Below, one piece after another: positions 6,858 to 50,716 of a stretch of DNA of 64,000 bases. The DNA lies in the NCBI GenBank assembly GCA_907163375.1, contig CAJQUW010012959.1, forward strand, positions 124,001 to 188,000, given 5' to 3'. The notes under the pieces were generated by a model, which ran no database searches, had not been told where the DNA came from, and saw only the letters and a program-made list of their open reading frames with translations. The DNA comes from Prostheceraeus crozeri. Lineage: Eukaryota; Platyhelminthes; Polycladida; Euryleptidae. The translations under genes were made by a program, and so were the position numbers. The number at the start of each line of letters is the position of its first letter. Position 1 is the first letter of the stretch.

Positions 6858-6860
6858 AAC

Positions 6861-6927
6861 CTTCTAATGCAGCTAAAGCGGTCCCAAGCCCGCCACATAT
6901 CTTCGGATATGGAATGCAGAGGGGAAG
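6861..6927 (+). ncRNA. Twister self-cleaving ribozyme (copy A)
   Basis: It contains the diagnostic GCGGTCCCAAGCCCGC loop-stem and TAATGCAGC. P1 is CUUC/GAAG, P2 UGCA/UGCA, P4 GCGG/CCGC around UCCCAAGC, and P5 CAUAUC-UUCG-GAUAUG; GAGGGG can form the loop pseudoknot with UCCC. The expected cut is after U6865 (CU|AAUGC). All core positions look intact although the neighbouring gene is broken. Twister is an established ribozyme class; activity here is inferred. Confidence 0.88.
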
Positions 6928-18076: not shown

Positions 18077-18092
18077 GGCCCTTAAGAGGACC
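18077..18092 (-). promoter_or_regulatory. Histone-like 3' stem-loop without ribozyme
   Basis: On the minus strand CCAAAA-GGTCCTCTTAAGGGCC-ACC: 6-bp stem (one G-U), CUUA loop, with the CCAAA 5' flank and ACC 3' flank typical of histone mRNA ends. It starts 20 nt after the stop of the gene at 18343-18113. No twister and no CAAGAAAGA follow. Confidence 0.55.
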
Positions 18093-19039: not shown

Positions 19040-19098
19040 CTTTCTTCCTTTCACTTCGGAGACATAGCATGAATGACATTCAGGTGTAACATGGCACA

Positions 19099-30929: not shown

Positions 30930-32933
30930 CGACATGGCTAACATGCCATCTGTTGCTGGGTGCTTGGATGGGACCCATGTTTACATTGATGCTACTTATA
31001 CTGATATACTGATTATACTACTTATACCGCAGTACATCAATCGACATGGAACGCATTCGAAAATTGCTATGTGTGGTTGTGGAACTGACTGTCGATTCTA
31101 TTACGTCAGTGCAAAGTGGCCAGGATCGGTCAATGATACTCGCATTCTCAAGAAAAGTACGCTTTGTAGGAAATTTGATGGAGGTTGGCGACCATTTCCC
31201 AATGCAATAATTCTTTGGGATTCCGCTTACCCATTAAAGGAGTGGTTAATTCCGCCAGTGAGACATCCGTAGACCCAACCTGAGGAGAGATTCAACATCC
31301 CTCACAAGCGAACGAGACGGATAATAGAGAACGCATTTGGAGCTTTAAAACAGCGTTTCTCATGTTAGTAGTAACCCCATTGCAGGCCCAAGGACAAAAT
31401 GTGAAATGCTGACTCAGCCCCTTCCCCACCCGGCCGGCGTCACACTTCCAACTTTGGTTGTAGAGATGGTAGAAAGTCGTGCCATAGCTCATTTGAAAGC
31501 TGAGAATGAGAAAAAGGCAGTGGAAAGCTCAGTTTGGACTCATTTTCTTGGGTTTAGGAAGGAAAATGGCAGGAAACTGTCAGAGTTGGAAAAAGTCAGG
31601 TTTTGGAGGTTTTGGGATGAGAAAAGTCGTTTTTCGACATGAACGAGTGCTCGGATGGGAAAATGGAGTGCAAATTCGGACGTTTTGACCAATTTTGGGT
31701 CTAGAAACATCTTCCCAACTCAATCGGAGAGAAAAAGTTCTGACCCCCACACCTACCCGCACCCCCACCCCCTCCTGTCACACTTCCAACTTTGGTTGTA
31801 GAGATGGTAGAAAGTCGTGCAATAGCTCGTTTGAAAGCTAAGAGTGAGACAAATTCAGTGGAAAACATGGCTTGTTCGTATCTGCCTTCGTTTAGATGTG
31901 ATGCGTCATTTAAGATTTTGGGAGATTGGCGAAAAACGACAGAGTTAGAATGTTTATGAAAATCACTCCAGCGGGTGAAGCAAGCCTCGGACGGGCAAAC
32001 AGAGACCAGATTTGGAGTCACCGTCAAATTTCAGACAAATGATGTTTTGACCCCCACCCCCTTATCGATTGCATATTCACAGGGTATATAAGAATGGGAT
32101 CGGGAGAGGAATTTCGCTAAGTTGAGAAACTGACTACAGGTAAGTCGTTTCTCTAGAGTTCCGATATCGGACTTCTGACTTTCCATTGCTGATATCAGCT
32201 AAGGTGTCAGACTTATAGGTTAGTCAGTATAGCATGACTGACCATTTGATGATAGTAGGCCGAAATCTTCAAACGGCTATAACTTTGCTTCTACAAGTCC
32301 TTTAGACTTGATTCAAAAAACATTCGACAGCTCTTGCTGTGCTGTAGGTGACAGACTACCTATAAACGTTTTATGAGTAGTACTAAAATACTAAAAATTT
32401 AAATTCATATTTAATGATTATAATTAAAGTTTTTGAATAAAAAGCAGTCGTTTATGAGTCTCAGTGACTTGGGTCGTTTCCTCTTGTAAATAACTCCACC
32501 GGTTTTCATGTCAAAACTGGGGCCCGAATACCAACACAGTGATATGACGCACGCTCTGTCCGCCCGAGGTTGGATTTGTTGGTCGAGGCCTTGGAGCTGG
32601 GATAAGATCCCCTCTCAGTAATGCCTGTAACGGATTCAAGAGCTTAACACCCAAACGGTTGCTGGCTTGCTATCAGGCCTTCTTCGTCTAGCCTCAGTAA
32701 CTCAGGCTTGGCAACGTCTATCGTTTGTCATTGTAACTTGGTAAAAATGGGACGGTTACTGCAAGCATTGACGTCAAACCTTTTCGCGTCATAGGGTAAT
32801 CCGTCTTTGTGTTGGGAGTTGGTAACAGAAAGCACGATGACTGCCGATGCCCATACATGGTAAAACTGCTGTTGTCAAGTTAAAAGCATGACCAAATAAG
32901 GAAGGTCTGAATCATAGCTTTGTGCTCGCTGGG

Positions 32934-33183
32934 TATATAAACCGCGACTTTTCTCTAGTCTTCACTCCTGTTTCAAGTTGCAAGACGAACGGTGAGTGCT
33001 CTGACAAGGTTTGCTATCAAACTTTGGGATTTAGGATAAAGCTAGGAATCATACTCTTTAACTTTGGTTGACGATCTTATTCCAACGTTTGCTATCAAAT
33101 GTTTGATGACTTAGTCTTTCAATGCATATCAGCAAGTAGTATCCTATAAACACTTGCCATCAAATTTTACTCTATCTTTACAG
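32934..33183 (+). promoter_or_regulatory. TATA promoter, non-coding exon 1 and intron of the coiled-coil gene (copy B)
   Basis: TATATAAA at 32934; donor ACG|GTGAGT after 32991; acceptor TTTACAG at 33183, seven bases before the ATG at 33191. Confidence 0.6.
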
Positions 33184-33190
33184 AATCATA

Positions 33191-34321
33191 ATGACGAAAT
33201 CAAGCAATGCAAAAATGTTGGTTGGCAAATGCAGTTGCGGCAAGATTGCCACAGGTAGTGAGCTGAGGAAGCATATTAAAGAGGGGACGGTGGGCGTGCA
33301 TATGAGAGAGGTGTTGTTGAGAGTGTGCGTCCATCATCGGGTGGTATGTGGGGAAGGGAATGAGGTGGCATTTATTAAGGATCACAACGAGTGTCCAAGT
33401 GGCAATATAGCTATGGCAGGGTTCAAGGAGTGGTTGGAGGGAGAGTTGTTGGAAAGGGAAGAGGTGAGGAAGGCGGTGGCAACGATTGAGGGCGTGGTAG
33501 GGGAGAAAGTGGTGACGAAGGCGAGTGATGAGAGTTCGAGTGAGGAAGTTGAGTTGAGAGCGGAAATGAAGAAGAAGGATGATGTTGATTTGGATAAGGT
33601 GATTAAGGATTTGTTTGGGGATATCGGTGATCTGGAGGGGGAGGGTGAGGAAGTGGGTAAGCCGATGGCAGCGTCATCGCCACGGTGGGAAGAGGGGTGT
33701 GATACGGAGGCATTTGTTAGGTTGAAGGATCGTGTGATGGGTTTGGAAAGTGTAAATAGAAAAGTTTTGAATGAGAATGAACAGCTGGTGGCGAAGGTTG
33801 AGGGGTATAGGGCAACGAGGGAAGAGTTGGAGAGCATGAGAAAGAAGGAGAAGGAATGGATGGCGGAAAGGAGCGAGTTGATGAGGAAGGCAGGTTTGGT
33901 GGAGAGTTTGCAGGCGAGTTTGTCGAGGAAGGATGAAGAGATAGAGAGGATGCGAAGCGTGGTGAAGGAGACGGAGGAAGTGAAGGATATAAATAAGAGG
34001 TTGGCGGGTGAAGTTGAGCGACTGCATGAGTGAGTGTTTGAAGAGTAGAAAAAGAAGAGTGTATGAAGTCCATCTTCCCCTCTTTGAAAATAATAAATGT
34101 GACGTCCCCACAATCACTGACGACCCTAATGTGACTCAGCAATGCTATGAGGGCGACGGAGTCCGGTGCCTACATATGAATTTGAACATCACTGGAGAGC
34201 TGGAGGACTTCGTCGTCCGAAAAGTTCGGAAGAAGTTGCCCAGTAAGTTACTTCAACATCATCATTTCCTTGCCGCCTCTAATCTCCTATTCTTTTTCTT
34301 TCAGAGTGTTTGCAGAAGTGA
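33191..34321 (+). pseudogene. Coiled-coil protein, copy B (left arm, 4-bp frameshift)
   Basis: Nearly identical to the right-arm copy but with a duplicated GAGT near 34030, which shifts the frame after GEVERLHE; the downstream C-terminal part and the 62-nt terminal intron (34243-34304) remain. See the intact copy at 47795-48921 for domains. Confidence 0.75.
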
Positions 34322-34350
34322 GAGTGTCGGTGGACGGAGAACGACCCATG

Positions 34351-34366
34351 GGCTCTTTTAAGGGCC
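34351..34366 (+). promoter_or_regulatory. Histone-like 3' stem-loop (copy B)
   Basis: GGCTCTTTTAAGGGCC, 29 nt after the stop codon, followed after three bases by the twister. Confidence 0.65.
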
Positions 34367-34369
34367 AAC

Positions 34370-34436
34370 CTTCTAATGCAGCTAAAGCGGTCCCAAGCCC
34401 ACCACATATCTTCGGATATGGAATGCAGAGGGGAAG
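34370..34436 (+). ncRNA. Twister ribozyme (copy B, one change in P4)
   Basis: Same as the other copies except GCGGTCCCAAGCCCAC: the P4 stem now has one C-A mismatch. Predicted cut after U34374, 8 nt beyond the hairpin. Activity may be reduced. Confidence 0.82.
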
Positions 34437-35009
34437 AAAAATGATGAACGTATGAAACGGGAGGACATTCATGCGCCACACGCAACATATCACAGACTTC
34501 TCTCTTCGCTAGTGAACAAGCTCTTGTCAGTGTCGTCAGAAAATGTATCATGTTGTACAAAAGTTGATACTGCAACACAGGTTGATGTATAGTTAGAAAA
34601 GTTTGATCATGATGTTTTATGAAACACACATGTCATGAAATGCAAGTGTTAGTGTAGTCAAATAATTTTACTACGACACACGTTTGTGAAAATAATGTTT
34701 GATCATTGACGTTGTATGACTGACCGAACTCATCACAGCACTAGAAAGTTTTAGAAGGTTTTACTGCACAGTGTAGATTGTCTTGTAACTTACTTTCACA
34801 GTGTTAGAAAGTTTTATTGGAGACAGTTGTCAAATGTTCCCTATTAGAAAATTCAAACTTCATGACTGTTAGATTCGCTTCATCAGGTTTACTAAAAGCA
34901 GTTTTCTACTGCAATGAGAGTTTAGAATGTTATATGAAAACAGTGTTCGCCACAGCACTAGAAAGTTATTATCCTTAGTTGAGATCCGGACTGCAGTGTG
35001 TAAACTTTT
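34437..35009. other. Non-coding tail after the ribozyme
   Basis: One to two diverged units of the repeat seen at 7033-7560 and the conserved tail ending near 34973. Confidence 0.5.
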
Positions 35010-35310
35010 TTATGTGACAGTCTTTTCACAAACGGTGAAGTGTAAATTCAGAGTGAATACATCTGTTAGGTAGTCATTAACTTTGGATGTGAAGAAAAGC
35101 GAATCTGTGTACAGAATGAATTGAATATTAGACAACGCATGCAAGTTTTTGACGACTTGAGTGGTTGAAACCAAGTCTAAGTTTAACATGTTGGATATAA
35201 AAGTGAGATGGATAGGAATAAGTGTTGAATGTTTTATAAAACCAGATGTTGCCACACACGTTGAGTGTGATTCCATGACATTGAATCGCCTGGGTTGTAA
35301 AGTCCATCAT
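35010..35310 (-). CDS. Two overlapping small frames (60 and 88 codons), left arm
   Basis: A TATA-like GATATAAAAC lies near 35350; ATG 35310 opens a 60-codon frame, ATG 35276 an overlapping 88-codon frame. Both are preserved in the right arm (46805-47105). No similarity recognised; which, if either, is translated cannot be told. Confidence 0.25.
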
Positions 35311-35850
35311 CCAAGGCTAGGCTCCTCTATGGTTGGATTTAGGGTTTTATATCACATGTGTTAACCGTTCGTGTAGAATACGTGAAACACATGTTCGCTT
35401 AAATGCAAATGTTGAAATAAGTTTGTAAGAAGTCTTTGACAGGTTGTTGTGAAACTTAGCGAACGTTGAAAAAAGTTTTATGAAATGTTTCTTCACTCAC
35501 ACTCGTTAGCGTACCAGCTTTACTAAATGTGTTGTTTGCCTTTATCAAATTGAATGTGTGTGTTTTGTAATAAAGACAGCGTGTTTGCACTCTGCATCGA
35601 CAGCATACAAGTATAGACATAACAACTTGTTGTTAGTCGAATGCATATGAGATAGGAAACATTATGTGTGAGATAAAAATCAACCTGCTAGATGAAGTGA
35701 AACACAAAAGTGTCACAACTAGTTTACGGGAAATAAAGGAGAACTGTGACAACGTTTACACTCATCATAGACAGATGAACATACAAATCTGACATTCAAA
35801 TGAAAGTCGTAAACATGAACTGCCGTGTAAGAAACTTTATATCAACAACT
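35311..35850. other. No gene recognised (arm sequence)
   Basis: AT-rich arm sequence, mirrored at 46270-46760. Confidence 0.4.
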
Positions 35851-36066
35851 TTATGTTGGTAAAACTTTCATAGGTTGCAGGCGTGTTGAAAGCTGATATA
35901 AAGACCTGTAGAAACGCATAAGTCTTAGTTCAATGACTCGATCCTTGAACTCATACAATGAATACGTCTTTGTAGAAAACTCATTCGTAGGAAACAGCAT
36001 TTTCTGTGTGAATGCAGACGATGTAAACATGACATTTAACATGGCTTGCAATAGTCAACATGCTGC
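35851..36066 (-). pseudogene. Small frame (72 codons), left arm, interrupted
   Basis: Counterpart of the open 72-codon frame at 46047-46265; here the fifth codon is TGA instead of TGG, leaving a shorter frame from an internal start. Confidence 0.3.
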
Positions 36067-36156
36067 CATTCAAAATGTTTATCATGAAACCTATCAGTGA
36101 AAAACCCCTCCTGTGCCCACAAAGAATCATAAGTGCTCTCTGACGCCTGTTTGTCT

Positions 36157-36264
36157 CGCTAGCCCCTCAGCAGATAGAGTAGAACACAAAGATGAATGAC
36201 AGCGCAGCAGGTGGGCAATCGTCTGTCGCGCTAGCCCCTCAGCAGATAGAGTAGAACACAAAGA
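36157..36264. repeat. 72-bp tandem duplication upstream of the SIM-protein gene
   Basis: CGCTAGCCCCTCAGCAGATA units start at 36157 and 36229; mirrored near 45850-45960. Confidence 0.75.
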
Positions 36265-36549
36265 TGTACGCGCTCTCTCTCTGGCGCCCGTCTGTCACAT
36301 GAAACAGAGAGCTATCGCATCTGTCCCACGAGCAAGGATGCAGGAACGTATCGTAGCACCTAGCTGATTCCCACACAGCTCATTGCTATCGCACCGGAAG
36401 GGAGATTCTCGCGATGAATGCATCTAAGTTTGTTGAGTGGTTGAGGATGGCAGTCAATCAAAATATGACTTCCCTTTTCGTCCACCAACCATAAGCTTAG
36501 AGCGATTTGATTGCGCGAACCAGACATTTGAAAGGCTGTATCATTCTCA

Positions 36550-36555
36550 TATAAA
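36550..36555 (+). promoter_or_regulatory. TATA box of the SIM-protein gene (left arm)
   Basis: TATAAA in CATATAAAGC, ~32 bp upstream of the ATG at 36587; the leader would be very short. Confidence 0.5.
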
Positions 36556-36586
36556 GCAGAGTCTCGTGCATTTTACTATCATAATC

Positions 36587-37008
36587 ATGTCCGAGAAGCC
36601 AACTGCTCAAGTTACCCCATATAGGATTACTTATATGGGTGAAACGTTTCTCTCCGATGAGAGTGAGGATATAGTATTTCATTTTATGAAATACTATTCC
36701 TTGTTCGATGAATCGAACGTCATACCTCCACCCGAATCCCCGATGATAGATCTGCAGGAATCTCCGAGTGAGAGCGAGACGGTGGGGAGCGAGGCCGAGA
36801 TGGCAACCAGCGAGAGCGAGACGGTCGAAAGTGATAACATGGAAAGAGAGGAGATGATGTGGAGTGGGGACTCGGAAAGTGATAACATAGAAAGTGAGGA
36901 AGTGGAAGCGAGTGAAGATGTCATTGTGATATCGGATGATGAAGTAAGAGTTTTACACATGCATACGAATGACTATCATCTCAACTCATTCATGTTTTCT
37001 TTCAGTGA
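36587..37008 (+). CDS. Acidic protein ending in a SUMO-interacting-like motif (left arm)
   Basis: Start MSEKPTAQVTPYRITY; 119 codons to the donor GATGAA|GTAAGA (exon 36587-36943), intron 36944-37005 (62 nt, TTTCTTTCAG), then TGA as the first codon of exon 2. The spliced protein ends DVIVISDDE: a hydrophobic VIVI core followed by Ser-Asp-Asp-Glu, a textbook SIM. The middle is rich in Ser/Glu (repeated SESETV, SESDNIESEE), resembling CK2-type substrates. No enzyme domain. An unspliced reading extends to 37090. Followed by hairpin and twister. Confidence 0.6.
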
Positions 37009-37100
37009 TGGAGTGAGTGATGGGCGTTCTTTAGTTCATAAAATCATCATGCACACATACAGCACACTGCTTCACCACATTTCCTCGTGAATGCATCATG

Positions 37101-37116
37101 AGTTCTTATAAGAACT
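37101..37116 (+). promoter_or_regulatory. 3' stem-loop (6-bp stem, UAUA loop) of the SIM-protein gene
   Basis: AGTTCTTATAAGAACT: perfect 6-bp stem and 4-nt loop, the same geometry as the histone-like hairpins but a different sequence, followed one base later by the twister P1 strand. Confidence 0.55.
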
Positions 37117-37117
37117 T

Positions 37118-37186
37118 CCTTCTAATGCAGCTAAAGCGGTCCCAAGCCCGCCACATATCTTCGGATATGGAATGCAGAGGGGAAGG
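37118..37186 (+). ncRNA. Twister ribozyme (left arm, inner copy)
   Basis: P1 CCUUC/GAAGG, P2 UGCA/UGCA, P4 GCGG/CCGC, P5 CAUAUC-UUCG-GAUAUG, conserved TCCCAAGC and GAGGGG. Cut predicted after U37123, 7 nt beyond the hairpin. Confidence 0.9.
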
Positions 37187-37964
37187 ATATATGATGAATG
37201 GAATGAAATGGGAGGACACTCTTGCACCACATGCAGCCACAAACACATTTCTATCTTCATTAGGATGACATTCAGTCACTTGAATTCTAATGTGACCATC
37301 ACATCCTTAGACCTCAGTACAGTCAACTCTCTAAAGTACTTATTAAACCTATTATCTCTAACTTTACAAACACTGAAAGGATTCCAACATGATTTCAAAC
37401 TTTGCAAACATCAACTTTATTTCTAACGTTGCAAACAGTGAAATGCTTGTGACACTATTTTATACTTTACCTAACTTACAAACACTGAAATGCTTGTCAC
37501 TTTATTTATACTTGACCTATAAATTGCTAAAGTCCATCATCTAAGGGGTAGGGTTACCTACCGTTGGGTTTAGGGACTTAGGGCTTTGGATAACACAAAT
37601 GAACGATCTCTTTTAGTGTAGAATACGTGATGCATATGTTCGCTTTATAAAATGACTTTGAAGGCAAGACTTAATTTCAGGTTGAAAAGACAGATTTCAT
37701 ATTGTTGATGAGAGATAGTTACATGCTCATTATGTTATACACTTTACATTTGATGTGGTGAGCTGAAAGGTGATTGATGCATGTTCAATAGAAGAGTTGT
37801 ATGTATCTTAGTGATTGGAATAATAAGTGTGTAAAGAGTTAAAATATATAATAGTCAACGCAGGAAAGTTTCTTGTTATCCAAGCTAGGAATATATGAGC
37901 ATCATTCATCAGTCAGTGTTGTATTTTAAAAGTCGTATGCTGACAGAGACATAAGTTTACTAAA
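37187..37964. other. AT-rich arm sequence, no gene recognised
   Basis: Short repeated AACTTTGCAAACA-type units; mirrored at 44153-44930. Confidence 0.45.
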
Positions 37965-37968
37965 TTAT

Positions 37969-40271
37969 CCCTTTAGAGTTTAGTGGTACATTTTTATACC
38001 GCCAACAATGTATTCTTTTGTGATCGTGTTTCGGCTCTTGTTTTCCGCTGTCATTTACCATATCTAACAACTTGGTAGAAAATGCATTGAAAAAAAGATG
38101 TGACGAGTTTGTTTCACAAAATCAATTATTTTCTAGTGGATACCGACGATGAAATTGGACATTTTTTTCATTATCGACTTTTTGGGAATTGCATCGGGTA
38201 AGTGCTCATGTCATCTGTCTCTTTCATGTTCTAGTAACTTTTCTACCACAATGTTGTTAAGATGATAACCTGAAAAAACACAATTGGTCAAGAGATGATC
38301 TGATAGTTTGTTTGTTTGTGCAAAATTGAAATAGAACACGTAGGTGGTACAAATATATACCACTAAGCCTTAGAGGAAAATTATGCAAAATAATGAAATA
38401 TTCACGAATGCTAGTACATGTTCTGAAAAATGTATTGCTAGGTACTTGACATACATACATCCAAAGCCTAGATACACTTTTGCGTCTATGACGCTCCACC
38501 AATGTAGTTTTTGGCAAAATTTTCTCTTCAGGGACTCGACCACACACTATTAGCATCGTTATTCCGAAGTTGTTCCACTAGGCTATGTCCGTTTCTGTGG
38601 TGCTTATGCCTTAATTATAGTTTATAGCGTAGCCGTAGATGTTTGCTTTCTGTGACTTTAAGTAATACATTGAATCTTCTAAATAATGTACAGAATCAGA
38701 AAATGATTACAAGTAGCTGCTGCTTCAAATTTGACTTCTTATTTCAGGTGAGCCTGCCCATGTTGATGAAGAGGATATGTCTTTCTTTGAAGCGGACTAT
38801 GACGCCGGATTGGACGAAACCGTCATATCGACTTCACAAGCACCTGAATCTGATGAACGACCTACTACTTTAACTATGACAGGACCCAGAGAAACCCTCT
38901 TCTGTAACTCATGAAATACTAAAGCTAGTCTTCAACACAATCCATCGTTCTCAAAAACAATTGAATATGACATTATTCGGTCTGACATCCTTGAGCTGAA
39001 CTGCCCATATGTAGTATTTCTCAAAGTTTCTGGTTTGAATCAACTTATTGGTGACATACTAATTCCCCAGTCACACGAATACGCGAAACAAAATGGGAAC
39101 GTTTTTTCTGTTGAAGAAGAAGAAATGAAGGCCTTCGTGGGTATTTGTGTTCTAATGGGCCTGCTTGCTCTTCCTGAAATGAGGGATTATTGGTCCACTG
39201 ACAAAGCAGTTGGTGTTCCATTTGTGAATAATATAATGACCCTGGCAAGATTCGAAGCAATTAGAAAGAATCTGCACTTCTCTAATAATTGGGACGCCAC
39301 CCCTAATGACCGTGCCTACAAGATTCAGACGGTTTTAGATCATTTCAACATGCACATCTCTGTGTACATCATGTGTACATCTCTAATCAAAGGAAAAAGT
39401 GCTATGAAATCAACCACCGAAGCCGGTACAAATACTACCTCAGACTATTCTTCGATCAAATTGACACCGCCATTTCAAATGCCTACATAGTGTACAAGCA
39501 GATGAAAGACGCTTCCTGTAGCAATTCCTGTAGCTTCCCTTCCATGTCATCAAAGGACTTTCGCTTGAAGATTGTTCATGGTCTAGTAGGACAATTCTCA
39601 TCAAAATCCAAACCGAGGTTCGAATCGGCAAAGTCGAAGAAAAGAAAGTTGCTCCAACCATCATCCAATGGTATTCCTCACCTTCCAATTGTCAAAAGCA
39701 ATAGAGCACGATGTACGTTCTGTTCTTCAAACGAAAACGACTGCCGAAGTAATGTATTCTGCAGGATCTGTGACGTTGCTCTATGTCTGAATAGTCAGAG
39801 GAACTACTACTCATGTTATCATGAATAGTTTCATTCCCCTATTGCTTGATAGGCCTAAATTTGGACACAACACACGAATGATAATGTATATTGCTAATCG
39901 TCATCAATCATCGATTGATCATTTTTTTGAGTTGTATGTGAAAAACAGGCATTTCTCCAACAAGTGTAGTGCTCTGAATTACACAATAACATGAGGGGTT
40001 TGGTATATTGCACAATATCAAAATACAATTTTAACCATGCCTACGTAGGTACTTGCATTAAAGAGCGCAACAACAATTGCAAAAAAACTATCTGCCCAGA
40101 GCGAAAATTTCACTAGGGTATAGTGGTACAAAAATGTACCACCCCCAAAAATAATATTCCCGATATATATTTTTCAAAATACTTGAGATATGTCTTAATG
40201 GACCCTATAACAACTATCCATGAAAAGAAAATAAGATTCCTCAGTAAAATGAAGATCTGTGCCTTAAAGGG
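37969..40271. mobile_element. piggyBac element inserted in the left arm only (TTAT target)
   Basis: Ends CCCTTTAGAG and CCCTTTAAGG (inverted), flanked by TTAT at 37965-37968 and 40272-40275. The mirror position in the right arm (44149-44152, ATAA) has a single uninterrupted copy, so the borders are exact: 2,303 bp. piggyBac normally uses TTAA. Confidence 0.93.
38751..39828 (+). pseudogene. piggyBac transposase, internally deleted
   Basis: An acceptor at ~38749 opens an acidic N-terminal region with an in-frame TGA near 38912, then KAFVGICVLMGLLALPEMRD and YWSTDKAVGVPFVNNIM (39120-39240), typical of the piggyBac domain start. After 39370 the sequence jumps to the C-terminus: LFFDQIDTAISNAYIVYKQ and a Cys-rich zinc-binding end (CTFCSSNENDC...CRICDVALCL). 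The catalytic Asp residues in between are gone; non-autonomous copy. Confidence 0.85.
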
Positions 40272-40275
40272 TTAT

Positions 40276-42132
40276 ACAGCAAAACTCCTAAATCACTAAA
40301 ACCATAGGATAGGTATCCCTGTGTTAAGATTTAGGGATTTAGAGTTTTAGAAGTACAAGTTACCTTGATAAATCACTAAGTCATTAGTATAGTCAACCTT
40401 ATATGATCCATGTTAGCAATATCTGCTCGTGTAGGATGTGACTCAATGAGTTTAGTCAGATAATGTATCATCAACTTTATTCACTTAGTTATATGATGGA
40501 GAAAGTGTGAGATAGAAGTGAAAGCGATCTCATAAAGTTTAGAACACATAGTAGTAGCATTGTAGGAATAAGTAAAGTGAAAAGTTATGTCGCATGAAAT
40601 CAGTGATGCAAGATTAGCTCGCATTGAAATGAATTGGTAGTGTAACAAACAAGCTATGTGAGATTCAGCATATGTTTGAAGACAAGCGCTGTTAAAAGGT
40701 TTTGAGATGATGTGAATTTTATCACGTCATGTTCATGGATGTATGTAACAGAATGAATGTTTCTACTGGTTGAGTGTATAAGATAGAACACATATCATAG
40801 TTGTTGCATGTAAACTGGAGGTTCATATTCAACGAAAGCAAAGATTGAGATTGCAAAGTTTAATGAATAGGTAGTGTAGCAAACTGGTTAGACATAGTTA
40901 GAAGAAACCGCAGTAACATATCGTGATAGTATCATATTGCATTAGGACTGTTAATTTATGAAAGTAATTCACGTAAAGTTAAACTGAAGTAGTTTGTATA
41001 CTTGATGAAGACAAGATACTATGAGTGTGAACGTAGGAATAGCATGCAATGGAGTATGCGTTGAAATGATTGTATGCCAACTGTATATGAAAAGTTATTT
41101 CCAACAGCAAATGAGTAACACGAACGTATTAAGGTGCTACAAGTCTTTCATGTTGATGAGGTTGACTGGAAGAAATGACTGTTGTCGTAAATGAGGAATT
41201 CAGCCTATGTTGAAAGTCAGGTACTGTGAAAGTTTTTATGATGATATTTGTCAAGATTGAATGCAAAGTATCACATCATGTTTATAGATGAAAAGCGGAA
41301 GAGAATAAATGTCTTTACAGGTTTTGAGTGTATAGGATAGAACACATGAAACAGTTACACATGTAAATAAAGTTAAAGGGTCACAGTTGATGAAAGGTAG
41401 CTTTGATAGATTTCACATGGGTTGTTATGTAGAATGAATTGATATTCATAAATGGAAGTATGATGTAGTGATAAAGTGTTTCTAAGCCTTTCTTATGAGT
41501 GTCTATGTAAGGCTGACTTTCATAAGTTGAGAAATGACTGTCTTCATAAGTGCAGAATAAAAGTATTTAGCTAGCATGCATTATCTTTCAGGGATGATTG
41601 AACTCAAGTATTGTTATGCAGTATGTCTTGTGATGATATTTCGTATTGAACACTGTATCAAGTCATAAGTATGGGTATGAAGTATAATAGAATAAATGTT
41701 TCATTCACAGGTTGAGAATATAGGAGGCACAAAGTATTGGTTGTATGTCATAGAGGGAAAAGCAAGTAATTTATAGAGTGACAGAGTCGATGTGTATGTG
41801 AAAGTATGTTAACGTATACATCCTATCCGAGAAATAGTATTAGGTCTCTGTGTAGATGTCTCAATAACGTTTCATGGTTGTATTAGAATAAATCTGGTCA
41901 GTTGGGTAGTTCTCCCTTTAATTTCATCTTTATATTCTCTCTCTCTCTCTATGTCTGCCTGTGTGTATTTTCTTCTTTGTATCTGGTTGGGTGAGTGTTG
42001 TGACTTTTTAAGTTGGTTTCCTTTAGAGTATAGAATGTTCATTTCGTATAGAATATGTTAATAGGAATATATTAAGGGTAGTATCTTTGTATATTGCAAG
42101 AGGTATAGCATCATGGTTAGCAAGGTAGCAGC
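40276..42132. other. Long AT-rich repeat zone of the left arm
   Basis: Diverged repeat units sharing GAATGTTTCTACTGG/GTGTATAAGATAGAACACAT-like segments around 40510, 40760, 41310 and 41690. No coding frame. Mirrored at 42274-44148. Confidence 0.5.
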
Positions 42133-42273
42133 CAAATGATGCCATTTGCTTCTTCTGTTTTTGTCTAATGTTCATTAGTTTGATGAATGGTTACAAGTCA
42201 TCGCTTTATTATCATGCACTCATACGCACACAGACACGCTCACACAAACATGCATGGAATTCACGCACATAGA
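42133..42273. other. Spacer of the giant palindrome (141 bp)
   Basis: Unique sequence between the arms; the arm match ends at GGTAGCAGC (42132) and restarts at GCTGCTACC (42274). A frame crossing it (42187-42474) shows no protein features. Confidence 0.85.
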
Positions 42274-44930
42274 GCTGCTACCCTGCTAACCATGATGCTA
42301 TACCTCTTGCAATATTCAAAGATACTACCCTTAATATATTCCTATTATCATATTCTATACGAAATGAATATTCTATACTCTAAAGGAAACCAACTTAAAA
42401 GGTCACAACACTCACCCAACCAGATACAAAGAAGAAAATACACACAGGCAGACATAGAGAGAGAGAGAATATAAAGATGAAATTAAAGGGAGAACTACCC
42501 AACTGACCAGATTTATTCTAATACAACCATGAAACGTTATTGAGACATCTACACAGAGACCTAATACTATTTCTCGGATAGGATGTATACGTTAACATAC
42601 TTTCACATACACATCGACTCTGTCACTCTATAAATTACTTGCTTTTCCCTCTATGACATACAACCAATACTTTGTGCCTCCTATATTCTCAACCTGTGAA
42701 TGAAACATTTATTCTATTATACTTCATACCCATACTTATGACTTGATACAGTGTTCAATACGAAATATCATCACAAGACATACTGCATAACAATACTTGA
42801 GTTCAATCATCCCTGAAAGATAATGCATGCTAGCTAAATACTTTTATTCTGCACTTATGAAGACAGTCATTTCTCAACTTATGAAAGTCAGCCTTACATA
42901 GACACTCATATGAAAGGCTTAGAAACACTTTATCACTACATCATACTTCCATTTATGAATATCAATTCATTCTACATAACAACCCATGTGAAATCTATCA
43001 AAGCTACCTTTCATCAACTGTGACCCTTTAACTTTATTTACATGTGTAACTGTTTCATGTGTTCTATCCTATACACTCAAAACCTGTAAAGACATTTATT
43101 CTCTTCCGCTTTTCATCTATAAACATGATGTGATACTTTGCATTCAATCTTGACAAATATCATCATAAAAACTTTCACAGTACCTGACTTTCAACATAGG
43201 CTGAATTCCTCATTTACGACAACAGTCATTTCTTCCAGTCAACCTCATCAACATGAAAGACTTGTAGCACCTTAATACGTTCGTGTTACTCATTTGCTGT
43301 TGGAAATAACTTTTCATATACAGTTGGCATACAATCATTTCAACGCATACTCCATTGCATGCTATTCCTACGTTCACACTCATAGTATCTTGTCTTCATC
43401 AAGTATACAAACTACTTCAGTTTAACTTTACGTGAATTACTTTCATAAATTAACAGTCCTAATGCAATATGATACTATCACGATATGTTACTGCGGTTTC
43501 TTCTAACTATGTCTAACCAGTTTGCTACACTACCTATTCATTAAACTTTGCAATCTCAATCTTTGCTTTCGTTGAATATGAACCTCCAGTTTACATGCAA
43601 CAACTATGATATGTGTTCTATCTTATACACTCAACCAGTAGAAACATTCATTCTGTTACATACATCCATGAACATGACGTGATAAAATTCACATCATCTC
43701 AAAACCTTTTAACAGCGCTTGTCTTCAAACATATGCTGAATCTCACATAGCTTGTTTGTTACACTACCAATTCATTTCAATGCGAGCTAATCTTGCATCA
43801 CTGATTTCATGCGACATAACTTTTCACTTTACTTATTCCTACAATGCTACTACTATGTGTTCTAAACTTTATGAGATCGCTTTCACTTCTATCTCACACT
43901 TTCTCCATCATATAACTAAGTGAATAAAGTTGATGATACATTATCTGACTAAACTCATTGAGTCACATCCTACACGAGCAGATATTGCTAACATGGATCA
44001 TATAAGACGCTAAGTCTTGTCATAGGGTTGACTATACTATGGACTTAGTGATTTATCAAGGTAACTTGTACTTCTAAAACTGTAAATCCCTAAATCTTAA
44101 CACAGGGATACCTATCCTATGGTTTTAGTGATTTAGGAGTTTTGCTGTATAATTTAGTAAACTTATGTCTCTGTCAGCATACGACTTTTAAAATACAACA
44201 CTGACTGATGAATGATGCTCATATATTCCTAGCTTGGATAACAAGAAACTTTCCTGCGTTGACTATTATATATTTTAACTCTTTACACACTTATTATTCC
44301 AATCACTAAGATACATACAACTCTTCTATTGAACATGCATCAATCACCTTTCAGCTCACCACATCAAATGTAAAGTGTATAACATAATGAGCATGTAACT
44401 ATCTCTCATCAACAATATGAAATCTGTCTTTTCAACCTGAAATTGAGTCTTGCCTTCAAAGTCATTTTATAAAGCGAACATATGCATCACGTATTCTACA
44501 CTAAAAGAGATCGTTCATTTGTGTTATCCAAAGCCCTAAGTCCCTAAACCCAACGGTAGGTAACCCTACCCCTTAGATGATGGACTTTAGCAATTTATAG
44601 GTCAAGTATAAATAAAGTGACAAGCATTTCAGTGTTTGTAAGTTAGGTAAAGTATAAAATAGTGTCACAAGCATTTCACTGTTTGCAACGTTAGAAATAA
44701 AGTTGATGTTTGCAAAGTTTGAAATCATGTTGGAATCCTTTCAGTGTTTGTAAAGTTAGAGATAATAGGTTTAATAAGTACGTTAGAGAGTTGACTGTAC
44801 TGAGGTCTAAGGATGTGATGGTCACATTAGAATTCAAGTGACTGAATGTCATCCTAATGAAGATAGAAATGTGTTTGTGGCTGCATGTGGTGCAAGAGTG
44901 TCCTCCCATTTCATTCCATTCATCATATAT

Positions 44931-44999
44931 CCTTCCCCTCTGCATTCCATATCCGAAGATATGTGGCGGGCTTGGGACCGCTTTAGCTGCATTAGAAGG
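44931..44999 (-). ncRNA. Twister ribozyme (right arm, inner copy)
   Basis: Mirror of 37118-37186 with identical core and P1 of five pairs; cut expected after the U at 44994. Confidence 0.9.
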
Positions 45000-45000
45000 A

Positions 45001-45016
45001 AGTTCTTATAAGAACT
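45001..45016 (-). promoter_or_regulatory. 3' stem-loop of the SIM-protein gene (right arm)
   Basis: AGTTCTTATAAGAACT, mirror of 37101-37116. Confidence 0.55.
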
Positions 45017-45108
45017 CATGATGCATTCACGAGGAAATGTGGTGAAGCAGTGTGCTGTATGTGTGCATGATGATTTTATGAACTAAAGAACGCCCATCAC
45101 TCACTCCA

Positions 45109-45530
45109 TCACTGAAAGAAAACATGAATGAGTTGAGATGATAGTCATTCGTATGCATGTGTAAAACTCTTACTTCATCATCCGATATCACAATGACATC
45201 TTCACTCGCTTCCACTTCCTCACTTTCTATGTTATCACTTTCCGAGTCCCCACTCCACATCATCTCCTCTCTTTCCATGTTATCACTTTCGACCGTCTCG
45301 CTCTCGCTGGTTGCCATCTCGGCCTCGCTCCCCACCGTCTCGCTCTCACTCGGAGATTCCTGCAGATCTATCATCGGGGATTCGGGTGGAGGTATGACGT
45401 TCGATTCATCGAACAAGGAATAGTATTTCATAAAATGAAATACTATATCCTCACTCTCATCGGAGAGAAACGTTTCACGCATATAAGTAATCCTATATGG
45501 GGTAACTTGAGCAGTTGGCTTCTCGGACAT
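45109..45530 (-). CDS. Acidic SIM-containing protein (right arm)
   Basis: Mirror of the left-arm gene: exon 45530-45174, 62-nt intron 45173-45112, stop codon 45111-45109 as the first triplet of exon 2. 119 aa. The only amino-acid difference I noticed near the start is YMRE for YMGE. Both arm copies remain open and keep the VIVISDDE end. Confidence 0.6.
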
Positions 45531-46046
45531 GATTATGATAGTAAAATGCACGAGACTCTGCTTTATATGAGAATGATACAGCCTTTCAAATGTCTGGTTC
45601 GCGCAATCAAATCGCTCTAAGCTTATGGTTGGTGGACGAAAAGGGAAGTCATATTTTTATTGACTGCCATCCTCAACCACTCAACAAACTTAGATGCATT
45701 TATCGCGTGAATCTCCCTTCCGGTGCGATAGCAATGAGCTGTGTGGGAATCAGCTAGGTGCTACGATACGTTCCTGCATCCTTGCTCGTGGGACAGATGC
45801 GATGGCTCTCTGTTTCATGTGACAGACGGGTGCCAGAGAGAGAGCGCGTACATCTTTGTGTTCTACTCTATCTGCTGAGGGGGTAGCGCGACAGACGATT
45901 GCCCACCTGCTGCGCTGTCATTCATCTTTGTGTTCTACTCTATCTGCTGAGGGGCTAGCGAGACAAACAGGCGTCAGAGAGCACTTATGATTCTTTGTGG
46001 GCACAGGAGGGTTTTTCACTGATAGGTTTCATGATAAACATTTTGA

Positions 46047-46265
46047 ATGGCAGCATGTTGGCTATTGCAAGCCATGTTAAATGTCATGTTTACATCGTCT
46101 GCATTCACACAGAAAATGCTGTTTCCTACGAATGAGTTTTCTACACAGACGTATTCATTGTGTGAGTTCAAGGGTCGAGTCATTGAACTAAGACTTATGC
46201 GTTTCTACAGGTCTTTATATCAGCTTTCAACACGCCTGCAATCTATGAAAGTTTTACCAACATAA
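46047..46265 (+). CDS. Small frame (72 codons), right arm
   Basis: Open from ATG 46047; contains a QAMLNVMFTSSAF start and an Arg-rich ELRLMRFYRSLYQL helix. No similarity recognised; the left-arm copy has a stop at codon 5, which argues against strong constraint. Confidence 0.3.
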   Translation: MAACWLLQAMLNVMFTSSAFTQKMLFPTNEFSTQTYSLCEFKGRVIELRLMRFYRSLYQLSTRLQSMKVLPT

Positions 46266-46804
46266 AGTTGTTGACATAAAGTTTCTTACACCGCAGTTCA
46301 TGTTTACGACTTTCATTTGAATGTCAGATTTGTATGTTCATCTGTCTATGATGAGTGTAAACATTGTCACAGTTCTCCTTTATTTCCCGTAAACTAGTTG
46401 TGACACTTTTGTGTTTCACTTCATCTAGCAGGTTGATTTTTATCTCACACATAATGTTTCCTATCTCATATGCATTCGACTAACAACAAGTTGTTATGTC
46501 TATACTTGTATGCTGTCGATGCAGAGTGCAAACACGCTGTCTTTATTACAAAACACACACATTCAATTTGATAAAGGCAAACAACACATTTAGTAAAGCT
46601 GGTACGCTAACGAGTGTGAGTGAAGAAACATTTCATAAAACTTTTTTCAACGTTCGCTAAGTTTCACAACAACCTGTCAAAGACTTCTTACAAACTTATT
46701 TCAACATTTGCATTTAAGCGAACATGTGTTCACGTATTCTACACGAACGGTTAACACATGTGATATAAAACCCTAAATCCAACCATAGAGGAGCCTAGCC
46801 TTGG

Positions 46805-47105
46805 ATGATGGACTTTACAACCCAGGCGATTCAATATCATGGAATCACACTCAACGTGTGTGACAACATCTGGTTTTATAAAACATTCAACACTTATTCC
46901 TATCCATCTCACTTTTATATCCAACATGTTAAACTTAGACTTGGTTTCAACCACTCAAGTCGTCAAAAACTTGCATGCGTTGTCTAATATTCAATTCATT
47001 CTGTACACAGATTCGCTTTTCTTCACATCCAAAGTTAATGACTACCTAACAGATGTATTCACTCTGAATTTACACTTCACCGTTTGTGAAAAGACTGTCA
47101 CATAA
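46805..47105 (+). CDS. Two overlapping small frames (60 and 88 codons), right arm
   Basis: GATATAAAAC near 46760 could act as TATA box; frames start at ATG 46805 and 46839. Both stay open in both arms. Unknown function. They occupy the place taken by the 150-codon gene in element 1, in the same orientation. Confidence 0.25.
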
Positions 47106-47679
47106 AAAAGTTTACACACTGCAGTCCGGATCTCAACTAAGGATAATAACTTTCTAGTGCTGTGGCGAACACTGTTTTCATATAACATTCTAAACTCTCA
47201 TTGCAGTAGAAAACTGCTTTTAGTAAACCTGATGAAGCGAATCTAACAGTCATGAAGTTTGAATTTTCTAATAGGGAAACAGTTCGCAACTGTCTCCAAT
47301 AAAACTTTCTAACACTGTGAAAGTAAGTTACAAGACAATCTACACTGTGCAGTAAAACCTTCTAAAACTTTCTAGTGCTGTGATGAGTTCGGTCAGTCAT
47401 ACAACGTCAATGATCAAACATTATTTTCACAAACGTGTGTCGTAGTAAAATTATTTGACTACACTAACACTTGCATTTCATGACATGTGTGTTTCATAAA
47501 ACATCATGATCAAACTTTTCTAACTATACATCAACCTGTGTTGCAGTATCAACTTTTGTACAACATGATACATTTTCTGACGACACTGACAAGAGCTTGT
47601 TCACTAGCGAAGAGAGAAGTCTGTGATATGTTGCGTGTGGCGCATGAATGTCCGCCCGTTTCATACGTTCATCATTTTT

Positions 47680-47746
47680 CTTCCCCTCTGCATTCCATAT
47701 CCGAAGATATGTGGCGGGCTTGGGACCGCTTTAGCTGCATTAGAAG
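47680..47746 (-). ncRNA. Twister ribozyme (copy C)
   Basis: P4 is fully paired here (GCGG/CCGC), P5 CAUAUC-UUCG-GAUAUG, P1 CUUC/GAAG. Lies just downstream of the intact coiled-coil gene. Confidence 0.9.
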
Positions 47747-47749
47747 GTT

Positions 47750-47765
47750 GGCCCTTAAAAGAGCC
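47750..47765 (-). promoter_or_regulatory. Histone-like 3' stem-loop (copy C)
   Basis: GGCTCTTTTAAGGGCC on the minus strand, 29 nt after the stop of the coiled-coil gene. Confidence 0.65.
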
Positions 47766-47794
47766 CATGGGTCGTTCTCCGTCCACCGACACTC

Positions 47795-48921
47795 TCACTT
47801 CTGCAAACACTCTGAAAGAAAAAGAATAGGAGATTAGAGGCGGCAAGGAAATGATGATGTTGAAGTAACTTACTGGGCAACTTCTTCCGAACTTTTCGGA
47901 CGACGAAGTCCTCCAGCTCTCCAGTGATGTTCAAATTCATATGTAGGCACCGGACTCTGTCGCCCTCATAGCATTGCTGAGTCACATTAGGGTCGTCAGT
48001 GATTGTGGGGACGTCACATTTATTATTTTCAAAGAGGGGAAGATGGACTTCATACACTCTTCTTTTTCTACTCTTCAAACACTCATGCAGTCGCTCAACT
48101 TCACCCGCCAACCTCTTATTTATATCCTTCACTTCCTCCGTCTCCTTCACCACGCTTCGCATCCTCTCTATCTCTTCATCCTTCCTCGACAAACTCGCCT
48201 GCAAACTCTCCACCAAACCTGCCTTCCTCATCAACTCGCTCCTTTCCGCCATCCATTCCTTCTCCTTCTTTCTCATACTCTCCAACTCTTCCCTCGTTGC
48301 CCTACACCCCTCAACCTTCGCCACCAGCTCTTCATTCTCCTTCAAAACTTTTCTGTTTACACTTTCCAAACCCATCACACGATCCTTCAACCTAACAAAT
48401 GCCTCCGTATCACACCCCTCTTCCCGCCGTGGCAATGACGCTGCCATCGGCTTACCCACTTCCTCACCCTCCCCCTCCAGATCACCGATATCCCCAAACA
48501 AATCCTTAATCACCTTATCCAAATCAACATCATCCTTCTTCTTCATTTCCGCTCTCAACTCAACTTCCTCACTCGAATTCTCATCACTCGCCTTCGTCAC
48601 CACTTTCTCCCCTACCACGCCCTCAATCGTTGCCACCGCCTTCCTCACCTCTTCCCTTTCCAACAACTCTCCCTCAAACCACTCCTTGAACCCTGCCATA
48701 GCTATATTACCACTTGGACACTCGTTGTGATCCTTAATAAATTCCACCTCATTCCCTTCCCCACATACCACCCGATGATGGACGCACACTCTCAACAACA
48801 CCTCTCTCATATGCACGCCCACCGTCCCCTCTTTAATATGCTTCCTCAGCTCACTACCTCTGGCAATCTTGCCGCAACTGCATTTGCCAACCAACATTTT
48901 TGCATTGCTTGATTTCGTCAT
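47795..48921 (-). CDS. Coiled-coil protein of the Polinton-like family, copy C (intact)
   Basis: CDS: 48921-47874, 62-nt intron 47873-47812 (CCCA|GTAAGT...TTTCTTTCAG), then 17 nt to the stop at 47795; 354 aa. Residues 1-80 have paired Cys/His (KCSCGKIARGSELRKHIK, VCVHHRVVC, HNECP) suggesting zinc binding. Residues ~85-180 are acidic. Residues ~185-290 form a long heptad-rich coiled coil (e.g. ERSELMRKAGLVESL, RMRSVVKETEEVKDINKRL). A compact C-terminal part (VYEVHLPLFENN, GELEDFVVRKVRKK) ends in a basic tail. No known family recognised. Without splicing the frame would run on to 47755; the strong sites and the conservation of the intron favour the spliced form. Confidence 0.7.
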
Positions 48922-48927
48922 TATGAT

Positions 48928-49178
48928 TCTGTAAAGATAGAGTAAAATTTGATGGCAAGTGTTTATAGGATACTACTTGCTGATATGCATTGAAAGACTA
49001 AGTCATCAAACATTTGATAGCAAACGTTGGAATAAAATCGTCAACCAAAGTTAAAGAGTATGATTCCTAGCTTTATCCTAAATCCCAAAGTTTGATAGCA
49101 AACCTTGTCAGAGCACTCACCGTTCGTCTTGCAACTTGAAACAGGAGTGAAGACTAGAGAAAAGTCGCGGTTTATATA
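48928..49178 (-). promoter_or_regulatory. TATA promoter, exon 1 and intron of the coiled-coil gene (copy C)
   Basis: TATATAAA at 49178-49171; donor ACG|GTGAGT at 49121/49120; acceptor TTTACAG just before 48928. Confidence 0.6.
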
Positions 49179-50716
49179 CCCAGCGAGCACAAAGCTATGA
49201 TTCAGACCTTCCTTATTTGGTCATGCTTTTAACTTGACAACAGCAGTTTTACCATGTATGGGCATCGGCAGTCATCGTGCTTTCTGTTACCAACTCCCAA
49301 CACAAAGACGGATTACCCTATGACGCGAAAAGGTTTGACGTCAATGCTTGCAGTAACCGTCCCATTTTTACCAAGTTACAATGACAAACGATAGACGTTG
49401 TCAAGCCTGAGTTACTGAGGCTAGACGAAGAAGGCCTGATAGCAAGCCAGCAACCGTTTGTGTGTTAAGCTCTTGAATCCGTTACAGGCATTACTGAGAG
49501 GGGATCTTATCCCAGCTCCAAGGCCTCGACCAACAAATCCAACCTCGGGCGGACAGAGCGTGCGTCATATCACTGTGTTGGTATCCGGGCCCCAGTTTTG
49601 ACATGAAAACCGGTGGAGTTATTTACAAGAGGAAACGACCCAAGTCACAGAGACTCATAAACGACTGCTTTTTATTCAAAAACTTTAATTATTATCATTA
49701 AATATGAATTTAAATTTTTCAGTATTTTAGTACTACTCATAAAACGTTTATAAGTAGTCTGTCACCTACAGCACAGCAAGAGCTGTCGAATGTTTTTTGA
49801 ATCAAGTCTAAAGGACTTGTAGAAGCAAAGTTATGGCCGTTTGAGGATTTCCGGCCTACTATCATCAAATGGTCAGTCATGCTATACTGACTAACCTATA
49901 AGTCTGACACCTTAGCTGATATCAGCAATGGAAAGTCAGAAGTCCGATATCGGAACTCTAGAGAAACGACTGACCTGTAGTCAGTTTCTCAACTTAGTGA
50001 AATTCCTCTCCGGATCCCGTTCTTATATATTCTGTGAATATGCAATCGATAAGAGGGGGTCGGGTTGGGGTCGGGGTCAAAACATCATTTGTCTGAAATT
50101 TGACGCTGACTCCAAATCTGGTCTCTGTTTGCCCGTCCGAGGCTTGCTTCACCCGCTGGAGTGATTTTCATAAACATTCTAACTCTGTCGTTTTTCGCCA
50201 ATCTCCCAAAATCTTAAATGACGCATCACATCTAAACGAAGGCAGATACGAACAAGCCATGTTTTCCACTGAATTTGTCTCACTCTTAGCTTTCAAACGA
50301 GCTATTGCACGACTTTCTACCATCTCTACAACCAAAGTTGGAAGTGTGACAGGAGGGGTGGGGGTGGGGGTTGGAGTGGGGGTGGGGGTCAGAACTGTTT
50401 CTCTCCGATTGAGTTGGGAAGATGTTTCTAGACCCAAAATTGACCAAAACGTCCGAATTTGCACTCCATTTTCCCATCCGAGCACTCGTTCATGTCGAAA
50501 AACGACTTTTCTCATCCCAAAACCTCCAAAACCTGACTTTTTCCAACTCTGACAGTTTCCTGCCATTTTCCTTCCTAAACCCAAGAAAATGAGTCCAAAC
50601 TGAGCTTTCCACTGCCTTTTTCTCATTCTCAGCTTTCAAATGAGCTATGGCACGACTTTTTACCATCTCTACAACCAAAGTTGGAAGTGTGACAGGAGGG
50701 GGTGGGGGTGGGGGGG

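Follow-up and report, generated by a model that had tools for sequence, protein, structure and literature searches.

Histone-type stem-loops followed by self-cleaving ribozyme motifs at gene ends of a flatworm DNA mobile element suggest ribozyme-made, tail-less messages

The window, a stretch of 64,000 nucleotides from Prostheceraeus crozeri (genome of 2.05 Gb in 14,165 contigs, with transposons and introns that look like those of an animal), carries two related mobile elements, designated here A and B. Element B is a near-perfect palindrome in which positions 31418-37968 match 44149-50713 in inverted orientation at 98.5% identity in a self-comparison of the window. It has terminal inverted repeats, next to which CATGTT and CATGTC form a 6-bp target duplication that differs in one letter; each of its arms holds gene 1 and gene 2. 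The left arm is broken by a piece of about 2.3 kb, by eye a piggyBac-type insertion, and the right end alone carries four tandem copies, about 140 nt each, of the terminal sequence (50713-51288). The whole element apparently sits, also as judged by eye, inside a Harbinger-type transposase frame. Inverted pairs of gene-1 modules, 7-14 kb apart, are present on seven contigs including that of the window, among the matches listed in a DNA search with the module, so that long inverted repeats with gene 1 look common in this element family.

Element A begins with the same terminal sequence as element B, and its right inverted repeat (19096-19403) is seemingly shortened. It carries a broken gene for a protein-primed type-B DNA polymerase, for which the Pfam DNA_pol_B_2 score exceeds the cut-off of 25.8 bits; the polymerase region shares no DNA with element B in the window self-comparison. 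Relatives of this polymerase with an organism name, among the best 120 of 376, come from a flatworm, a spider, ants, a beetle, a stick insect and a fruit fly, plus one bacterial bin. Twenty ORFs (11 from element A and 2 from element B, with broken frames) gave no Pfam match to an integrase, double jelly-roll capsid, packaging ATPase or protease. Other features of the window are a perfect palindrome outside the elements (52049-53089; two 515-bp arms, 100% complementary, with 11 nt between them), which lies behind a sub-threshold microRNA match, and transposase fragments of the DDE type (HTH_Tnp_4; 28013-28522) and the Tc1 type (60303-61295). A search with a C-type lectin ORF returned no match. 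The coordinates of the elements, genes and motifs are listed in Table 1.

Table 1. Positions of the mobile elements, genes, stem-loops and ribozyme motifs in the 64,000-nucleotide window
Feature	Position	Strand	Description
Element A, left end	3753..3766	+	AGTAGTAATCCCAT, same end as element B
Stem-loop, gene-1 copy of element A	6842..6857	+	Hairpin reading
Twister, gene-1 copy of element A	6860..6927	+	RF03160
Type-B DNA polymerase, element A	9918..12032	+	Frames broken; DNA_pol_B_2 32.4 bits on 11166-12032
Histone stem-loop, histone-like flanks	18077..18092	-	CCAAAA-GGTCCTCTTAAGGGCC-ACC; RF00032 22.8 bits
ORF ending in histone stem-loop	18113..18376	-	Stop 20 nt ahead of stem-loop
Element B	31367..51291	.	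Palindrome of about 20 kb, ends AGTAGTAACCCCAT; self-comparison
Gene 1, predicted last coding exon	34305..34321	+	Ends KCLQK, stop TGA 34319-34321, after predicted intron 34243-34304
Stem-loop, gene 1, element B left arm	34351..34366	+	GGCTCT-TTTA-AGGGCC; RF00032 15.3 bits in restricted search; folds
Type-P1 twister, gene 1, focal copy	34369..34436	+	RF03160; predicted cut after T34374; P4 mismatch A34401
Gene 2, open frame	36437..37090	+	217 aa, acidic; no Pfam match
Stem-loop, gene 2 end	37101..37116	+	AGTTCT-TATA-AGAACT; hairpin reading; folds
Twister of gene 2	37118..37185	+	RF03160
Twister, inverted partner of gene-2 copy	44932..44999	-	RF03160
Stem-loop, inverted partner of 37101	45001..45016	-	Hairpin reading
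Twister, inverted partner of gene-1 focal copy	47680..47747	-	RF03160
Stem-loop, inverted partner of 34351	47750..47765	-	Hairpin reading
Gene 1, open frame	47755..48921	-	388 aa, coiled coil; reads through predicted last intron, stops inside hairpin loop

Each of the five places at which the original prediction had reported a hairpin directly ahead of a twister ribozyme contains both. The type-P1 twister model RF03160 matches all five, at 6861-6927 (+), 34370-34436 (+), 37119-37185 (+), 44932-44998 (-) and 47680-47746 (-) (35.3-41.3 bits, E-values of 6 × 10−4 to 1.2 × 10−5 in the 64-kb window), and 6-bp/4-nt hairpins, GGCTCTTTTAAGGGCC at 6842, 34351 and 47750(-) and AGTTCTTATAAGAACT at 37101 and 45001(-), end 1-3 nt ahead of the twister at every site. 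Taking the cut to be at U^A, as in the twister family, cleavage is predicted 8 nt past the hairpin in gene 1 and 7 nt in gene 2, within the range of 7-8 nt claimed beforehand. The five sites are all real, and we reject them as independent cases: in the window self-comparison, 31418-37968 and 44149-50713 form an inverted duplicate and the gene-1 part recurs in diverged form at 4098-7818, so they represent two kinds of gene end, that of gene 1 in three copies and that of gene 2 in two. Between these two ends, detectable homology begins at the twister of gene 2 (37118) and spans 141 nt.

With the predicted splice, gene 1 has its stop codon 29 nt ahead of the hairpin, inside the spacing of 12-29 nt after the last coding region given in the original prediction. 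The frame that retains the intron and ends in the hairpin loop, which may or may not be coding, is also open in the one relative, with 78% identity, these copies being close. A structure model of the gene-1 protein is one long helix with a mean pLDDT of 47.5, too poor for use.

We also compared the direct copies of this region in the two elements. Over the stem-loop and the twister they are 90-100% alike, and the 5′ noncoding DNA over 4591-5597 is 92-100% alike; because the module is no better conserved than this noncoding DNA, the A-B comparison by itself shows no selection, and we discarded it as a proof of selection. In the same alignment (5624-6852 against 33140-34358) the gene-1 coding region is largely 47-90% alike per 60-base window, with 92-100% in the 1 kb 5′ of it and mostly 86-100% in the 3′ part; the coding part looks as if it had been exchanged or were evolving fast. 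Tandem noncoding repeats (TTATCATGTTGTACAAAAGTTTTACTGC...) lie behind the ribozyme of element A at 7021-7562, and likewise 3′ of several module and gene classes.

The twister assignment was examined further on an alignment of 16 hand-picked modules. The conserved core is present in this set together with P1, P2, P4 and the pseudoknots T1 and T2: with both pseudoknots included, 97.3% of 301 cells are paired, and slid controls reach at most 43.7%. Seven pairs are changed on both sides, including the T1 pair 44-84 (C-G or U-A), and T2 is invariant; these two-sided changes amount to few events, because most of them separate two classes. Their number does not exceed that in shuffles (233 of 500 reach it); the number of changed cells and the covariation score are reached by 0 of 500 shuffles. 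Position 34401 is A in the focal copy, which leaves a C.A mismatch in P4, and G in the other four window copies. Minimum-energy folding by itself does not set the modules apart (z of 0.15, −1.95 and −0.45). No twister reaches the RF03160 gathering score of 67.2, with 35-41 bits in the window and a best score of 57.1 in the genome; genome E-values of 2.7 × 10−9 to 7 × 10−4 mark these motifs as alike in fold, though below the curated cut-off.

The hairpins were judged by the criteria of the histone stem-loop: a 6-bp stem, a 4-nt loop whose first letter is a pyrimidine and whose third is U, and a G-C second pair. Simulation of 60 windows puts the expectation for such hairpins at 0.12 per 64 kb, counting both strands, with no more than 2 in any of them; the window contains seven, five of them the ones ahead of twisters. 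The other two lie in element A, on the sense strand and 3′ of ORFs. The first, at 18077, has a second genomic copy (L208); neither the Rfam models run on the window nor a search for hammerheads by eye revealed a ribozyme behind it, and another route may therefore serve this gene. The second is weak (AGTCTTTGTGAGGACT, 15722-15737, minus strand) and follows two 87-bp tandem repeats about 230 nt past the ORF at 15967-16419(-). Against the 16-nt Rfam histone loop, GGCTCTTTTAAGGGCC shares 15 letters and AGTTCTTATAAGAACT shares 11. The two RF00032 scores listed in Table 1 lie below the gathering score of 34, and RF00032 reports no match for the gene-2 hairpin in the window place searched.

In the window and the wider genome, four classes of module can be told apart by their hairpin stems, GGCTCT/AGGGCC in class 1, AGTTCT/AGAACT in class 2 and AGCCT/AGGCT in classes 3 and 4, which differ by compensating changes at homologous positions. 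The histone form defined above is shared by the hairpins of gene 1 and gene 2 in the window and by the HDV-type copies described below; class 3 and 4 hairpins depart from it, with 15 nt that can be read as a 5-bp stem and 5-nt loop or as 6 bp including G.U and a 3-nt loop. SLBP binding is least certain, given these two twister classes whose hairpins depart from the histone consensus. At the four class-4 loci such hairpins stand two in tandem, with CAAAC ahead of the second and, in three of the four (not L112), ACCC behind it; these flanks resemble the CAAA and ACCC of histone messages, as in the Rfam consensus.

RF03160 has at least 38 matches in the P. crozeri genome and RF00032 at least 52; both are lower bounds, since 62 of 85,252 and 75 of 295,389 candidates, respectively, were scored. 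Among the 38 twister loci, examined with 600 nt of upstream sequence, 35 have an element gene just ahead on the sense strand: gene 3, a small gene of about 78 aa, in 31 (with a reference protein from L105, itself one of the tested loci), and a gene-1 homologue in four, leaving three without a gene match. An intact hairpin stands directly ahead of the twister in 30 of the 38. It is damaged in L123, L124, L135, L137 and L139; the loci without a gene match (L143, L145 and L146) have none at the tested place, although L145, counted as hairpin-less, has a GCTCC/GGAGC stem further upstream, beyond the tested geometry. Twisters lying mostly without a hairpin or away from genes, the pattern named beforehand as evidence against the proposal, are the opposite of what these 38 matches show. 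The class-4 gene-1 homologues keep the module at 31% protein identity over the full length in L102 and 26-43% by segment in the others; their last intron is read at the same position, and their spliced C-terminus is similarly short.

Searching with the module DNA itself returned at least 40 near-identical copies, of which 30 were examined and one (L163) has a damaged hairpin; all 30 lie at a gene, an association that is not independent, because the query included the module and the last exon. When the 38 RF03160 loci, the 30 from the DNA search and 3 window places are combined, near-identical copies included, a stem of at least 5 bp ends 1-3 nt ahead of the twister in 62 of 71 modules, compared with 15.6% of random positions. 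The hairpin AGTTCTTTTAAGAACT followed by GTCTCTATCACGGAGAC is a further histone-like hairpin with the usual downstream sequence, found at L188:4243, L188:1182-, L189:6000 and L189:2936-. No ribozyme is recognisable behind these hairpins (in L188, no hammerhead by eye at the hairpin, and Rfam models gave only the twister and low-scoring matches); an unfamiliar or decayed cutter perhaps lies there.

Viral sequences in IMG/VR provide an outside comparison. One twister pattern scan returned nothing and a second a single contig (L001), whose ORFs we read as inovirus-like. A third yielded 111 twister-like cores in 97 loci, none with a histone-like hairpin upstream; 6-bp/4-nt hairpins of any kind precede 49 of the 111, so that a hairpin as such is common there. 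No relatives of gene 1 were found in IMG/VR, and the examined parts of two contigs with polymerase relatives, 12,193 of 15,128 bases in L002 and 14,001 of 17,398 in L003, contain neither the stem-loop nor a twister.

A second class of ribozyme motif emerged from the RF00032 matches. Nine of these exceed the gathering score, and seven of the nine are followed by an HDV-like motif. We examined 20 places (21 of the 52 matches), a set that favours perfect stem-loops, and found 18 stem-loops at 17 loci in which CAAAC-GGCTCTTTTAAGAGCC-ACAC, or a near variant, precedes such a motif. The spacer between stem-loop and motif is 4 nt in 16 of the 18, 9 nt in L193 and 2 nt at the first site of L202. The parts of the motif, which has the nested double pseudoknot layout of the HDV family, are P1 (GGAGCAA/UUGCUCU), P2 (GUGAUAG/CUAUCAC), P3 (ACC-UCCUCGU-GGU), P1.1 (CC/GG), P4 (CAGAC-UUCG-GUCUG) and a J4/2 with C. 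As a set, 17 aligned copies have this layout, with 94.5% of 510 cells paired and slid controls at no more than 43.3%; L196, which has a changed loop and an internal loss, was left out of this alignment and of the homology test below. No covariation is seen among the 17, because the copies are too alike. A strict descriptor demanding every pair finds five of the 18 copies (the other 13 have at least one broken pair or altered spacing), no further one in the own-genome strands scanned (726 kb, overlapping in part), nothing in 800 kb of shuffled sequence, and five matches in 1.08 Mb of IMG/VR DNA. The strong RF00032 matches L191 and L192 were considered as host histone genes and set aside, no histone coding being recognised upstream in the stretch examined.

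At 15 of the 17 loci the gene that ends in the stem-loop and HDV-like motif is a homologue of gene 1. Another gene ends in this way at L198 and at the second site of L202, a locus with two successive genes, each with its own stem-loop and HDV-like motif; the gene ahead of L210 is not clearly assignable. With gene 1, gene 2 and gene 3 ahead of twisters and the L198/L202 gene ahead of the HDV-like motif, at least four different genes have a stem-loop and ribozyme motif at their 3′ end, on the sense strand. The distance from the predicted stop to the stem-loop is 29-31 nt in 11 of the 15 gene-1 loci, close to that of window gene 1; it is 19 nt in L206 and L207, L194 has no stop ahead of the loop, and L200 gave no splice acceptor and hence no distance. 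Taking one site from each of 16 loci, the upstream sequences of 14 align with window gene 1 at scores of at least 134, compared with shuffled maxima of at most 27 (the exceptions are L198 and L210), and downstream of the stem-loop none of the 16 exceeds the shuffled maximum against the window copy. Homology thus stops at the end of the stem-loop, behind which the element carries either a twister or an HDV-like ribozyme motif. Homologues of gene 1 with a kept stem-loop and either class of ribozyme are hard to explain unless cutting at this place is the function, and this exchange is the strongest evidence for gene ends that would be made by ribozymes.

The same comparison bears on a reading in which the ribozyme serves the RNA downstream of it, its cut setting free the 5′ end of a transcript that begins there, the upstream gene being incidental. 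Homology among the twister classes does extend about 70 nt past the ribozyme, and HDV-like ribozymes that free element RNA from co-transcripts are described (PMC4035085). The HDV-type copies, however, are homologous to the twister copy in gene and stem-loop and unrelated to it in the sequence 3′ of the module, and nearly all RF03160 matches (35 of 38) lie directly behind a gene; we regard this alternative as improbable. Still less credible is that one module was merely duplicated along with the element and has no present function. Copies within a class are 96-99% alike, and between window copies A and B the noncoding DNA around the module is no less similar than the module itself, as such inheritance would have it; against it stand the compensating changes that separate the classes in both hairpin and twister, the persistence of the module where the protein is 31% identical, and a stem-loop that stays while the ribozyme class behind it changes.

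It may also be asked whether the hairpin is an SLBP site or a plain stem that protects or insulates the 3′ end, the ribozyme making the mRNA end and the stable hairpin blocking 3′ exonucleases. The departure of class 3 and 4 hairpins from the 6-bp/4-nt histone form fits a plain stem, as does the gene-2 hairpin with its 11 of 16 letters of the histone loop. The HDV-type stem-loops point the other way: 17 of 18 have the Rfam loop consensus at 16 of 16 positions (in a set picked by that model; the loop of L196 is changed), mostly with CAAAC ahead and ACAC or ACAT behind. Class 4, too, retains CAAAC and mostly ACCC flanks, and at 18077 a histone stem-loop stands between histone flanks with no ribozyme found. 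We consider the plain-stem reading unlikely.

The ends of histone mRNAs consist of the stem-loop followed by ACCCA and are made by the U7 snRNP and CPSF73. For the element genes we propose that transcription would pass the stop codon, run through the histone-type stem-loop and reach a self-cleaving ribozyme, either twister or HDV-like, which would cut its own strand about 4-8 nt past the stem-loop. The resulting mRNA would end in the stem-loop and a few further letters (ACAC, ACCCAU, AACCUUCU or UCCUUCU) that carry a 2′,3′-cyclic phosphate, and the stem-loop, probably through host SLBP, would stand in for the poly(A) tail in export, translation and stability. The sequences show the anatomy, its repetition at several genes, its sense orientation, the support for the folds and the ribozyme exchange; cutting in vivo, a mature end identical with the cut end, and SLBP binding are inferred.

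Ribozymes placed in the 3′ UTRs of reporters reduce expression, which would suit a different role, that of a brake or switch in which transcripts that escape cutting would run on to a poly(A) site and be expressed, the cut ones being destroyed. An AATAAA at 35569-35574, about 1.1 kb 3′ of the gene-1 twister, makes read-through to a poly(A) site possible for gene 1. A switch leaves unexplained why a histone-type stem-loop is kept at the cut end across genes and ribozyme classes, and we hold it to be very improbable. Preferred here is that this DNA mobile element makes its own mRNA 3′ ends by ribozyme cleavage behind a histone-type hairpin, independently of U7 and non-polyadenylated, which we judge probable. 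Towards a fuller form of this reading we lean only slightly: a modular, U7-independent 3′ end of histone type, in which a kept SLBP-type stem-loop is combined with interchangeable ribozymes (two twister subtypes and one HDV-like) at several genes, without poly(A), and is used perhaps in S phase when SLBP is abundant. The original prediction is partly supported. Its idea of ribozyme-made mRNA ends is favoured, more strongly than was visible from the five sites, by the occurrence at four or more genes on the sense strand, the many copies and the class exchange; the two 15-nt hairpin classes and the gene at 18077 without a ribozyme fit it less well, and its terms stable and non-polyadenylated remain conditional readings of the anatomy.

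Few of the self-cleaving ribozymes in animal genomes have a known natural role. The modules suggest that the element makes its own tail-less message ends; if so, two ribozyme classes would gain a concrete job, mRNA 3′-end formation, and there would be a natural route to histone-type tail-less messages without the U7 snRNP. A virus-like element would in that case be tied to the SLBP pathway and hence to the cell cycle, and a histone stem-loop a few nucleotides ahead of a ribozyme would be a signature searchable in other genomes. The exchange of classes behind one stem-loop would be rare evidence that cleavage itself, and not a particular sequence, is kept.

Among known mobile elements, those of the Polinton/Maverick and adintovirus type resemble the ones described here in the type-B DNA polymerase (seen in element A), in terminal inverted repeats and, as family traits, in a 6-bp target duplication and 5′-AG ends. 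Unlike them, the elements have no recognisable capsid, integrase, ATPase or protease in the 20 ORFs scanned, whose frames are broken. Replication-dependent histone mRNAs (SLBP, U7 snRNP; RF00032) have in common with the element genes the stem-loop and its flanks, a short distance from the stop and a cut a few nucleotides past the loop. That cut is made by U7-guided CPSF73, whereas the element would use a ribozyme in cis, at non-histone genes and with some hairpin classes off the consensus.

Open literature, searched by titles and the beginnings of abstracts and with subscription journals mostly outside the search, contained no description of a natural gene end of stem-loop plus ribozyme; the original prediction knew of no mobile element described with this pairing. 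An engineered case is known (PMC4456446). Penelope-like Terminons with hammerhead ribozymes at their 3′ ends (PMC6431247) and retrozymes also carry a ribozyme at or near the element 3′ end. They are, however, retroelements with hammerheads that are linked to telomere attachment or RNA circles, and the available text on Terminons (PMC6431247) yielded no histone stem-loop. The HDV-like ribozymes of retrotransposons (PMC4035085), R2 among them, are likewise self-cleaving HDV-like folds in mobile elements; they are described as freeing element RNA from a cellular co-transcript (PMC4035085), whereas those described here are positioned 3′ of the stop codons of several genes. One counterpart is man-made. 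The beta-His-delta reporter has the same order of gene, histone stem-loop and self-cleaving ribozyme, and in human cells its stem-loop restored the levels of the ribozyme-ended RNA (PMC4456446). The same source reports that the terminal intron of the reporter was poorly spliced (PMC4456446), a warning for gene 1, whose predicted last intron lies right before the module. That construct is a single engineered reporter with an HDV ribozyme (PMC4456446), whereas the arrangement in P. crozeri belongs to a natural element, recurs at several genes and has exchangeable ribozymes.
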